NCBI GenBank assembly: GCA_031258225.1
Contig: JAIRND010000101.1
Location: 1 to 34,467, forward strand
Direction of reading: 5' to 3'
From: Treponema sp.
Lineage (GTDB): Bacteria; Spirochaetota; Spirochaetia; Treponematales; Breznakiellaceae
DNA: 34,467 nt
The notes beneath the pieces are model-generated. The model had not been told where the DNA came from and searched no databases. It saw only the letters and a list, made by a program, of their open reading frames with translations. Positions 674 through 33,607 of this stretch are shown one piece after another. Each line of letters starts with the position of its first letter. Positions within the stretch are counted from its first letter, which is position 1. Made by a program: the position numbers and the translations under genes.

Positions 674-1246
674 GTGCGAATGATGGTGATGGCGAGATTC
701 ATTTTTACGTTTTTCTTCCTGAGTTTCTCCGGTTGGGTACTTGAAACAGTATCGGAGAGTATTGTCAGAGAAAAACCGGTGAACAAGGGTTTTTTCAGGG
801 GTCCCTGGGTGCCGGTACAGGGGCTCGGCGGGATTGTGGTCTACCTGCTGATGTATCCCCTGCGGGCCTACCCCGCGCTGATATTTTTCGCGGGGGCCGC
901 GCTATGCACGGCGCTGGAATATCTGACCGCCCTGTTTCTGGAACACTGCTTCAGGGTAAGAAGCTGGGATTACACGACCTACCCCTATACCAGGTGGTGC
1001 CATTTTCGGGGCCGTATCTGCCTGACCATATCCCTGTTTTTTGGAATAGTAAGCCTTGTGGTGGTCTATTTTTACTGGTCCCTTGCCGCGGGCCTGGCGG
1101 CCGCCCTGGGAACGTGGCTCCTTCCCCTTGACGGCGTGCTGCTGGTCCTTTTTACCGCCGATGTATGCCATTCCTGCGTCAAGATCAGACGGCTAAACAG
1201 GGAAGGCGTCAAACTAAACGGCTGGAACGTTTTTTCCGTCAGCTAG
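674..1246 (+). CDS. Multi-pass membrane protein, putative ABC-transporter type IV (CmpB-like, PF06541-type)
   Basis: 190 aa; 'FFFLSFSGWVLETVSESIVREKPVNKGFFRGPWVPVQGLGG...LEYLTALFLEHCFRVRSWDYT' fits this family pattern. Confidence 0.65.
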   Translation: MRMMVMARFIFTFFFLSFSGWVLETVSESIVREKPVNKGFFRGPWVPVQGLGGIVVYLLMYPLRAYPALIFFAGAALCTALEYLTALFLEHCFRVRSWDYTTYPYTRWCHFRGRICLTISLFFGIVSLVVVYFYWSLAAGLAAALGTWLLPLDGVLLVLFTADVCHSCVKIRRLNREGVKLNGWNVFSVS

Positions 1247-1412
1247 CAGCCTGTTGTACTTGTAGGTTTTTGCTCCACGTTGTGTCGCAAAAACCACGAT
1301 AAATGGGCTGCTTGCGGCTAACGCCGCTTCGGAGTTTGCGGGGTAAAAAATCGCCCTGCGGACGATTTTTTGGGTTTTACGCGCGAAGCGCGACAAACTC
1401 CTGGGAGTCGGT
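1243..1412. repeat. Intergenic nested-hairpin palindromic element(s)
   Basis: AGCAGCC...GGCTGCT enclosing GGTTTTTGC...GCAAAAACC; then GGAGTTTG (1331-1338)...CAAACTCC (1394-1401) enclosing AAAAAATCG...CGATTTTTT and CGCGCGAAGCGCG. Confidence 0.65.
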
Positions 1413-1914: not shown

Positions 1915-2003
1915 CCAGCAGCCTGCCGCGCCGCCTCATAGGTGGCGCCCTTCGGCGTTTTTTTGGGTTTTACGCGCGAAGCGCGGCAAACTGCCAGTCA
2001 CAG
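1915..2003. repeat. Second copy of the palindromic repeat downstream of the HD gene
   Basis: 33-bp block 1960-1992 matches 1367-1399 at 32/33 positions (TTTTTGGGTTTTACGCGCGAAGCGCG(A/G)CAAACT); imperfect terminal IR CAGCCTGCCGCGC / GCGCGGCAAACTG. Confidence 0.65.
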
Positions 2004-8092: not shown

Positions 8093-9676
8093 CTAGTGTA
8101 ACCGGAGATCCCCAAAATTCCAATAGCGGGTTTCCAGGTAAAGCCCGTCGCTCAGGTGGAGGCGGCCTGTAAAGGACGAGGCGGTTCCGCCTGTTAGGGG
8201 TCCGGCGGCGGCCAGCTCGCAGAAACGGGCAATAAGGGCGGCGCCGTCTTCCGCGCAGCCCCCGGGCCGGCCGGACAGCAGGGCGTTGTACAGCGGGTAC
8301 TCCCGCGGAAGGTCCGAATAACCCAGGGGCCCCGCCCCCTCCAGAGAGGCCAGCGCGGCGGGGGTATCGGAGTTCCGCAGGGCCTTGAACACGGCGGCAT
8401 AGGCCCCGTCCTCCGCGTCCGGGCCCCGGCCGGAAACCAGGTAGAGCGTGGGGATAGGGGGCCGCGGGACCGCTTCAGGTTCCCCCACCCGCTCAGGCCG
8501 AAGGCGGCCGAACCAGGTCCGGAGTCTTGCCAGAACGGCGCCGAACACCCCGGCGGGGGCGGCGCCGTTTCCCGGAGGCGGAACGGCAGGGGCCCGGGAG
8601 GACCAAAAACGGCCCTCCACAACCACGAGCCCCCGCGCGCCGTAGGGGACGGGCGGGTCGGGGCCCCGGACAAGCCCGGCGGCCCCCCTGCCGGACCCCC
8701 CGGCGCCGGAGGGGGAAACAAGGTAGGCCAGCGCGGAAGCGCCCGTTCCCCAGCCCGCCAGGAACAGGGGCGCCCCGGCGGAGGCGGGGGCCAGGGAGTT
8801 CAGGTTTTCCGTTGTATAGGGGAGCAGGAATTCAAGTTCGGCCATCTTCTCCGCCTCCAGGGCCCGGCCCGCGTCGTTGGCCTTTTTAAGCCTGGTCCCG
8901 TCGCGAAAGGCCCGCCAGAGCCTGAGCAGCCGCCCCGGCCAGCCGGAATCCCCGCGGCTATAACTTATCACGGTAAAACCCCGCTCCTCCAGGGCGGCGC
9001 AAATTCCGTCCACCGCGCTAAATCCGCCAAAATCGGGGGGAACCAGGAAGATAAGGGGCCTAGGAGTCTGTGGGGCTTGTGGATTTTTGCGGTCGTTGAC
9101 CGCAAAAATCTCCGATTCTCGGGCTTCTTTGGGAGTCTGCAAGGTAGAAAACGCACAAAATTGCGCGTTTTCTTTATTATTTGGGCTAAAGCCCCACAGA
9201 CTCCCAGGCCCGCAGCGATCCGCGCCGGAGGGCTCCCCCGAATCCCGGCCGTCAAAGACATGCAGGGTATAAACAGGGCTTCCGGCCCTCTCTGGCCCCC
9301 GCAGCGTAACATCCCGTGAACTTACGGGAACCTGGGGAACGGGGGCGAACCACAGGGCCGCGGCGCTTGTCAGGACCAGGAACCCAAGGGCGGGGACGAT
9401 AAACAGGGCCCCCCGCTCATGAAACCCGGCGTTGCGGCGGACCCCCGTAAGGAGGGGGCGGAGGTTCATCAGGGCTATCATCAGGTGGTTAAACAGCAGC
9501 GGAACGCATTCGGGCCTGAATCCATAGGCGGGGAAGATGGTAAGGGCGATCCCCAGGGCCAGAACGGGAAACCAGGCGATACCGTCAAGGGGCCAAAGCC
9601 CCTTAAACAGGGGACGGATAAGAAAAACAAGCGTAAACAACGAACTAAGGAGTTCCGGTACCAAAATTTCCCGCAT
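8093..9676 (-). CDS. Membrane-anchored alpha/beta-hydrolase-like protein of unknown function, interrupted in frame by a palindromic element
   Basis: ORF 8093..9703, ATG at 9676 (MREIL). N-terminal TM helices, then 'PLIFLVPPDFGGFSAVDGICAALEERGFTVISYSRGDSGWPG' and 'FLAGWGTGASALAYLVS'. Confidence 0.55.
   Translation of the reverse strand: MREILVPELLSSLFTLVFLIRPLFKGLWPLDGIAWFPVLALGIALTIFPAYGFRPECVPLLFNHLMIALMNLRPLLTGVRRNAGFHERGALFIVPALGFLVLTSAAALWFAPVPQVPVSSRDVTLRGPERAGSPVYTLHVFDGRDSGEPSGADRCGPGSLWGFSPNNKENAQFCAFSTLQTPKEARESEIFAVNDRKNPQAPQTPRPLIFLVPPDFGGFSAVDGICAALEERGFTVISYSRGDSGWPGRLLRLWRAFRDGTRLKKANDAGRALEAEKMAELEFLLPYTTENLNSLAPASAGAPLFLAGWGTGASALAYLVSPSGAGGSGRGAAGLVRGPDPPVPYGARGLVVVEGRFWSSRAPAVPPPGNGAAPAGVFGAVLARLRTWFGRLRPERVGEPEAVPRPPIPTLYLVSGRGPDAEDGAYAAVFKALRNSDTPAALASLEGAGPLGYSDLPREYPLYNALLSGRPGGCAEDGAALIARFCELAAAGPLTGGTASSFTGRLHLSDGLYLETRYWNFGDLRLH
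9056..9211. mobile_element. Palindromic element with 23-bp terminal inverted repeats inserted in frame inside an ORF
   Basis: TIR GGGCCTAGGAGTCTGTGGGGCTT (9056-9078) vs revcomp of 9189-9211 (GGGCCTGGGAGTCTGTGGGGCTT), 22/23; internal 13-bp perfect stem 9082-9094/9098-9110; second 9-bp stem 9146-9154/9165-9173; length 156 = 52 codons. Confidence 0.75.
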
Positions 9677-9725
9677 AAACGCTAGTTTACCGCAAGACTT
9701 CACAAAGAATCTTGCCTTCGCAAGA

Positions 9726-33070: not shown

Positions 33071-33108
33071 GTTTTCTCCTCCCATGGTCTATCGTGCGCA
33101 ACAGGCTG

Positions 33109-33607
33109 CTAGTACGCAGTCATGATTGTAATTGTGGGGGTTTTTTGGTGCTTCCGATGCTACCCGAACCTCCACGACTCTGCCCTCTTTGTGGTGTAGT
33201 CAGACACCATTCAACGTGGGGTTTTAAGTTTGATAGCCGCCTAACCTTAACTCCCTATCGTGAACCGCTACAGGGGCGGGGATAGCCCGGCGGGAAACGA
33301 TGGTGGTTATCGCAGGTATAAGGGTTGGTTGAACAACACAATGTGAACCGGCTGGGGAGCGGCAGGCCGCGGCGGCCACATGACCGAATCCTTGCGCCAT
33401 AAAAATGGGCCGGGTTTTATGGCGCAAGGCAAGCGTGGCCGCCGCGGCCTGCCGCTCCCCAGCCGGATTAATGTTGGAGGAGTTCGAGAGACCGTTATAC
33501 AAGGTTTTCCGCCGGGCTATCCCCGTCCCTGCCGGGAGGCGGTAGAGAGTTACGTTCAGGCGTATCAAACAGAACTACTCACAGGTTGAATATTGACTGC
33601 CTACTAG
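33109..33607. mobile_element. Complex nested inverted-repeat element (MITE-like or structured-RNA candidate)
   Basis: Outer CTAGTACGCAGTCA (33109) / TGACTGCCTACTAG (33594-33607); imperfect roughly 70-bp arms 33228-33298 / 33503-33570; perfect 32-bp arms 33348-33379 / 33435-33466; inner perfect 15-bp stem 33390-33404 / 33415-33429. No transposase ORF. Confidence 0.7.

Follow-up and report, generated by a model that had tools for sequence, protein, structure and literature searches.

A dispersed, probably mobile palindromic element lying in frame within protein genes of a treponeme

Background

Contig JAIRND010000101.1 of Treponema sp. (assembly GCA_031258225.1), whose whole stretch of 34,467 nucleotides is called the window here, carries a palindromic segment inside a long open reading frame. 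This raises the question whether a part of an ordinary protein gene has come to resemble a repeat or whether a mobile element was inserted there without closing the frame. An earlier note, made from the sequence alone, had favored an in-frame insert. The analysis reported here points in the same direction: the feature is considered, with a probability of about 0.87, to be the filled insertion site of a non-autonomous, MITE-like palindromic mobile element of spirochaetes, situated in frame in a protein gene. Dispersed copies, conserved ends, covarying hairpins, empty sites, a net length of 144 bp and in-frame copies in other conserved genes were all demonstrated.

Boundaries and folding of the element

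The segment proved to belong to a dispersed palindromic element, as a copy of the sub-family designated G-type. In a covariance model derived from 20 full-length copies it spanned positions 1-148, with a score of 146.5 bits (Table 1). The terminal inverted repeats, two hairpins and internal terminal-motif copy described in the earlier note were all present, the inverted repeats being recovered exactly as given there. Its span of 156 bp or 52 codons had to be corrected: the unit common to all copies runs from CTAG to C(T/C)AG inclusive and is 148 bp long in the window, where it ends in CCAG, while the outer GGGC and GCCC, which lengthen the terminal inverted repeat to 156 bp, belong to the flanks. 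The net insertion in the window gene was 144 bp, i.e. 48 codons.

Table 1. Features of the element, its host gene and further copies in the window.
Feature	Position	Strand	Basis or remark
Host gene: 536-aa membrane protein with an alpha/beta-hydrolase-like domain, 48 residues element-derived	8093..9703	-	ORF, orthologues, predicted model
Palindromic, probably mobile element, G-type	9060..9207	+	covariance model and empty site in orthologues
Left CTAG, at the right-hand end in coding orientation; proposed target, TA duplicate at 9061-9062	9060..9063	+	CTAG here in 54 of the 63 copies scored at both ends
CCAG, taken as a decayed CTAG with the second TA duplicate (T to C)	9204..9207	+	CTAG kept in 45 of the 63 copies; usual decays CTGG or CCAG
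Left terminal inverted repeat (9056-9059 is flank), arms 23 nt, 96% match	9056..9078	+	inverted-repeat search
Right terminal inverted repeat (9208-9211 is flank)	9189..9211	+	inverted-repeat search
Internal hairpin 1, arms 9082-9094 and 9098-9110, 13 nt, 100%	9082..9110	+	arms vary among sub-families (alignment)
Internal hairpin 2, arms 9146-9158 and 9161-9173, 92%	9146..9173	+	double-sided changes across copies in 9 of 11 pairs
Internal copy of the terminal motif, TGGGAGTCTG, with GGAGTCTG at 9132; complementary to 9197-9206	9130..9139	+	half-element boundary; solo halves end nearby
Second copy, intergenic, CTAGCAG-type, 162 bp	1243..1404	+	104.9 bits
Degenerate or half-size copy	1915..1997	+	31.4 bits
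Isolated 5' terminal motif TAGCAGCCTGTTGC, rest of the element missing	33098..33111	-	pattern match

The element strand folded at -50.9 kcal/mol with DNA parameters (z = -11.3), and none of 200 shuffles was as good. Across the 20 copies, 12 pairs were changed on both sides and 80 compensatory cells were counted against 27.7 +/- 3.9 in shuffles (0 out of 500 as high); slid controls brought the count down to 5-22 cells. Helix 1, which is the terminal repeat, was paired in 95.8% of cells and displayed compensatory changes. The terminal repeat and hairpin 2 covaried, and hairpin 1 remained a hairpin though its sequence differed among sub-families.

The make-up of the element appears modular: left and right halves also occur alone between CTAG sequences, and tandem copies may have one CTAG in common. 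Such halves, bounded by CTAG or its variants, were encountered at loci L013, L014-L017 and L301:1581-1663. They suggest either that two units have fused to form the element or that it recombines at the internal copy of the terminal motif.

The host gene and the empty site in its orthologues

The 536-aa frame reads across the whole element, as had been claimed from the sequence. Residues 9-165 of its product aligned with the orthologue in genome G002, followed directly by residues 214-536, on contiguous DNA, and the same was observed in G001 and others. In an alignment of 12 sequences, the 11 orthologues were gapped over 48 columns and the window protein alone was filled, except for three residues in one distant orthologue. 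On sequence comparison, the window locus is thus a filled site facing empty orthologous ones. Orthologues sharing the segment had been named beforehand as a possible refutation; the segment was missing in all 11, and the closest one was short by exactly 48 residues, which also replaces the earlier estimate of about 50.

These results bear on the simplest alternative, according to which the locus is an ordinary coding region with coincidental palindromes in a fast-evolving linker. Linker length does vary among orthologues, as this would require, but near-identical 148-bp copies occur elsewhere in unrelated and intergenic contexts, and neither the fold z-score nor the exact deficit of 48 residues in the closest orthologue fits such an origin. 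The further copies and the empty sites already rule this explanation out, and it retains practically no credence.

The AlphaFold2 model of the protein was of modest overall confidence (mean pLDDT 60.5). Used as a Foldseek query, it matched alpha/beta-hydrolases, in keeping with the hydrolase core proposed earlier. Residues 156-211 displayed a pLDDT below 50; they followed a beta-hairpin (130-150) and preceded the first core strand (217-221). The predicted position of the insert, in a low-confidence, disordered linker ahead of that strand, agrees with the one inferred in the earlier note, between the membrane/linker region and the catalytic domain. If transcribed and translated, the inserted element would form a spacer of 48 residues, probably disordered. 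As far as the model can tell, and with expression not shown, a tolerated disordered spacer is the likeliest outcome for the window peptide. Predicted junction peptides include CGPGSLWGFSPNNK and NPQAPQTPRPLIFLVPP.

Distribution in the genome and in relatives

The search for further copies that had been proposed as a check, their absence being the other refutation named beforehand, found them in abundance. The genome to which the window belongs is a 2.6-Mb MAG (254 contigs, 76% complete); it yielded 35 BLASTN matches, nine of which displayed 84-93% identity over 119-152 bp (window copy excluded), and 81 covariance-model matches at E <= 0.01. Several copies sit at contig ends, which is expected because repeats break assemblies.

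Within the window, the left CTAG of the copy at 1243-1404 contains the TAG stop of ORF 674-1246, so that the upstream gene retains its stop; this is a case of the C/TAG frame considered below. The isolated motif at 33098-33111 adjoins a flank, 'TCATGACTGCGTA' (window about 33111-33125), which, itself or as its complement, also directly adjoins copies at L012, L026, L028, L293 and L313. It looks like another repeat or a piece of a larger composite.

Individual copies elsewhere in the collection displayed peculiarities. At C179 (L003:about 1430-1520), the element end recurred in tandem as an 18-bp array (CCTAGGAGCCTGTGGTT...), which in one frame encodes SLGACG-type repeats. C231 (L301:2005-2152) was a near-consensus G-type copy at a contig end, just 5' of an apparent ribosomal protein S16 gene, which we take to be rpsP at the front of a cluster of the rpsP-rimM-trmD type. 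A related sub-family with the same core and other terminal repeats, AAGAGCCTGTTCAAATTG ... TTTGAACAG, was found in genomes G020 and G008 (L032, L033, L049, L050), with about 20 copies in G020.

Under a stricter filter (E <= 1e-6), matches were found in 20 out of 41 genomes searched, belonging to the window genome's own family (f1) and, in family f5, to G049; none was detected at this threshold in the genomes of families f2, f3 and f4 among those 41. A DNA search added copies in G058 and G055, both from f5. Among GTDB genomes, exact hits to the 28-base 5' end came nearly all from MAGs of spirochaetes, including Treponema and Spirochaetaceae; to judge by record titles only, most of these MAGs are of termite-gut type.

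The sole non-spirochaete match among those listed was L202 (JAISRS010000055.1), at a contig end of the Prevotellaceae MAG Kf353_bin76. Misbinning is likely, since a rich Treponema MAG was obtained from this sample as well. G-type copies from the Treponema MAG Cd354_bin93 (L177 and L210) were about 97% identical to copies of the window genome although their flanks did not match, which suggests that the element spread recently between species, or that this MAG is a close relative.

Other genes carrying the element

Whether the peptide recurs in unrelated proteins had been raised in the earlier note; related peptides were indeed found in several of them, the Pfam names of the host proteins being DUF815, Peptidase_S11, OmpA and 5-FTHF_cyc-lig. 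G-type copies lay in frame in a DUF815 ATPase (C83) and in 5-formyltetrahydrofolate cyclo-ligase (C25), both with orthologues devoid of the element. A shortened copy of this sub-family lay in frame in a 549-aa protein (C104), whose orthologues in G005, G003, G006 and G004 lacked it and whose orthologue in G002 displayed a different filler of similar length. A different 148-bp sub-family was encountered in frame in a biotin-ligase-like protein of another MAG, without orthologue comparison.

In three exported proteins an element of the G-type adjoins or forms the start of the signal peptide: C102 (D-Ala-D-Ala carboxypeptidase), C24 (a secreted 649-aa frame) and C93 (OmpA-family). No good start codon was found between element and hydrophobic core in C24 and C102. 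Private changes place GGAGG a few bases 5' of TTG in C24 and of ATG in C102, just upstream of the signal-peptide core, and these two copies are inferred to supply the translation start. Near signal peptides, the element may contribute both the start codon and the charged n-region.

Some apparent coding contexts were discounted: the 411-aa frame at C26 looks like an antisense frame, and at C180 (587 aa) and L170 (another MAG) the start codon lies after the element. Antisense ORFs across elements, which are common in GC-rich DNA, were left out of the counts.

Reading frames of the G-type sub-family

The eight complete G-type copies compared all displayed a net length of 48 codons (3x48, or 144 bp), and the reading frame therefore resumes after the element. 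Stops in the G-type consensus numbered 0, 5 and 0 in the three frames of one strand and 0, 5 and 0 in those of the other, so that only frame 1 of each strand is closed; the eight copies had their stops solely, or nearly so, in this same frame. It corresponds to the C/TAG frame, which is unusable inside a gene because TAG would already end that gene. At the level of sequence, the G-type consensus consequently places no stop in any of the four combinations of frame and orientation open to a coding CTAG.

All four permitted frames were open in six of the eight copies, namely C231 and C13 (outside genes), C160 (the window copy), C83, C24 and C102. One was closed in C179, which is intergenic, and one in C25, where the gene does not use it. 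Three of the four combinations of frame and orientation were in use: frame 2 of the opposite strand in the window, frame 0 of the same strand in C83 and C25, and frame 0 of the opposite strand in C24 and C102. All four permitted frames were open in 209 out of 100,000 randomized elements that kept the hairpins, and four frames were open in 6 out of 5,000 dinucleotide shuffles.

Other sub-families, in the own genome as in relatives, usually displayed stops in most frames and variable length (net lengths in relatives, among the matches listed, were spread evenly modulo 3, with 25, 29 and 31 for remainders 0, 1 and 2), and they were almost all intergenic. A coding or N-terminal context was assigned to six of ten G-type copies versus one of 23 others (Fisher p = 0.0012); this test was post hoc, included only ten G-type copies and relied on context calls that involve judgement. 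We tentatively consider, at somewhat less than even confidence, that the G-type was selected, or succeeded, as frame-neutral toward its own target, almost any insertion in a gene being read through, and that it is adapted to life inside genes as a source of linkers and signal-peptide starts.

The open frames also bear on the possibility that the interrupted genes are decaying pseudogenes, open only by accident. The MAG is fragmentary, expression is unknown, and a closed frame was indeed noted in C25 and in C179. Against this, six gene-borne copies (C83, C160, C25, C102, C24 and C104) were all open in the frame used despite 6-16 differences from the consensus in the full ones. Apart from the insert, host ORFs were of full length, their flanks scored as gene-like (weakest upstream of C83) and their proteins were conserved in sequence to the end; moreover, two of the hosts, Peptidase_S11 and 5-FTHF cyclo-ligase, are housekeeping enzymes and conserved. 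Decay is accordingly regarded as very improbable. Under the preferred reading of a tolerated mobile element, host proteins would accept the spacer in linkers and N-terminal regions, and gene-borne copies would thereby escape purging.

A selected peptide or RNA module, for instance a regulatory hairpin, could be proposed in place of tolerated selfish DNA. Maintenance of the structure by compensatory change is compatible with it, as are the private changes creating starts in C24 and C102. Yet at least three combinations of frame and orientation are used in different genes, and because of these differing combinations no single peptide is conserved. Most copies are intergenic, and no database match supports a known module: Rfam gave none near the threshold or gathering score, and the inserted peptides gave none at cut-off in Pfam and NCBIfam (one match to DUF3027, E 0.11, fell well short of its threshold). 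A dedicated function therefore has only a small chance of being the right explanation.

Target site and possible mobilizer

Discordant end pairs numbered 21 among the scored copies; eight fit NTAG...CTAN, and 13 did not fit a simple duplication of TA, most of them resembling decay of CTAG. C83 reads CTAG...CTAA, and G002 displays an unoccupied CTAA at that site. Insertion at the TA within CTAG with duplication of TA is inferred; a 4-bp duplication of CTAG is not excluded, but TA is favored because of the CTAA empty site of C83 and the independently varying outer bases.

IS630 reportedly prefers TA in CTAG, according to the title of Tenzen and Ohtsubo 1991 as cited in the ISY100 paper. Terminal inverted repeats, many dispersed short non-coding copies and empty sites in relatives are as expected of a MITE, for which an autonomous partner with matching ends is usual without being required. 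The apparent TA duplication in CTAG points to a MITE of IS630/Tc1-mariner type. A DDE transposase, most likely of that type, is inferred to have mobilized it in trans; a matching partner would have the ends TA-GSAGYCTGT, but no mobilizing transposase was found. Such elements, exemplified by ISY100, share the TA target, and TA duplication is their hallmark (PMC2170065); in contrast to them, the present element encodes no transposase, and the searches revealed no IS sharing its ends.

Transposases of types PF13340 (IS5), PF01797 (Y1) and PF13358 (IS630) were absent from the 76%-complete own genome, other families being outside this search. The IS630-type genes of G027, G006, G008 and G020 had no terminal repeats matching the element. 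At the terminal-motif loci of G055, tried as possible IS ends, no transposase ORF was recognized. Phage or plasmid origin was considered as well and gave no match.

A REP/RAYT-type or IS200/IS605-type element, mobilized in single-stranded form through its hairpins with CTAG as the recognized tetranucleotide, would account for the pair of hairpins in each element, whose arms vary while their pairing is conserved, and for the solo halves; Y1_Tnp genes do occur in G058 and G049. None was found, however, in the own genome, G003, G006 or G055, no terminal motif lay near Y1_Tnp genes, and long terminal inverted repeats with an apparent target duplication are unexpected under such a mechanism. This origin is judged unlikely without being dismissed.

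Comparison with known elements

The earlier note had inferred a class similar to the Rickettsia palindromic elements (RPEs) in this lineage. In-frame mobile palindromes in a spirochaete are supported by the present results; the family itself was not recognized as RPE. RPEs have been described as in-frame insertions in many conserved genes, and an RPE-bearing guanylate kinase is reported to be active (Ogata 2000, 2002, as reviewed in PMC10969869 and PMC2229807). By analogy they are the closest functional counterpart of the element, both being dispersed palindromes of about 100-150 bp, intergenic as well as in frame in unrelated conserved protein genes, with a predicted stem-loop, terminal inverted repeats and an unknown mobilizer. 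Differences lie in the spirochaete host, in peptides without NCBIfam or Pfam match (RPE DNA itself was not compared), in the use of three frame/orientation combinations in host genes and in the CTAG ends with apparent TA duplication, TA ends being present in only some RPEs (PMC10969869, PMC2229807).

Correia/NEMIS elements of Neisseria have 107-bp and 155-bp forms with TA-flanked terminal inverted repeats, the open-frame form occurring inside ORFs and the stop-containing form almost only between genes (PMC2229807). This contrast parallels that between the G-type and the other sub-families, although no sequence relation is known and length, ends and host differ. RUP from Streptococcus pneumoniae and ERIC are also short elements with terminal inverted repeats and TA at their ends, RUP being thought to be mobilized by IS630-Spn1 (PMC2229807); RUP differs in having stops in all six frames, and no partner IS was found for the spirochaete element. 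In-frame fusions are also given for ERIC, the 107-bp Correia form and a Yersinia element, the latter reported as part of a signal peptide (PMC2229807), and similar protein evolution in other prokaryotes has been called conceivable (PMC10969869, PMC2229807).

In-frame insertion of this kind is thus a known phenomenon; as far as the searches reached, the family, the lineage that hosts it and the rule relating target and frame appear to be new. Searches of open-access text returned no account of treponemes carrying such elements, although this is no proof that none exists. Descriptions of in-frame palindromic elements have come mainly from Rickettsia, and spirochaetes represent a separate case. 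Several conserved genes offer both filled and empty orthologous sites, so that tolerance or use of inserts by the host becomes testable in another phylum. The rule that links the CTAG target, the permitted frames and the layout of stops in the element is simple and can be checked; if it holds in other elements, it would explain why some MITE sub-families colonize genes and others do not.
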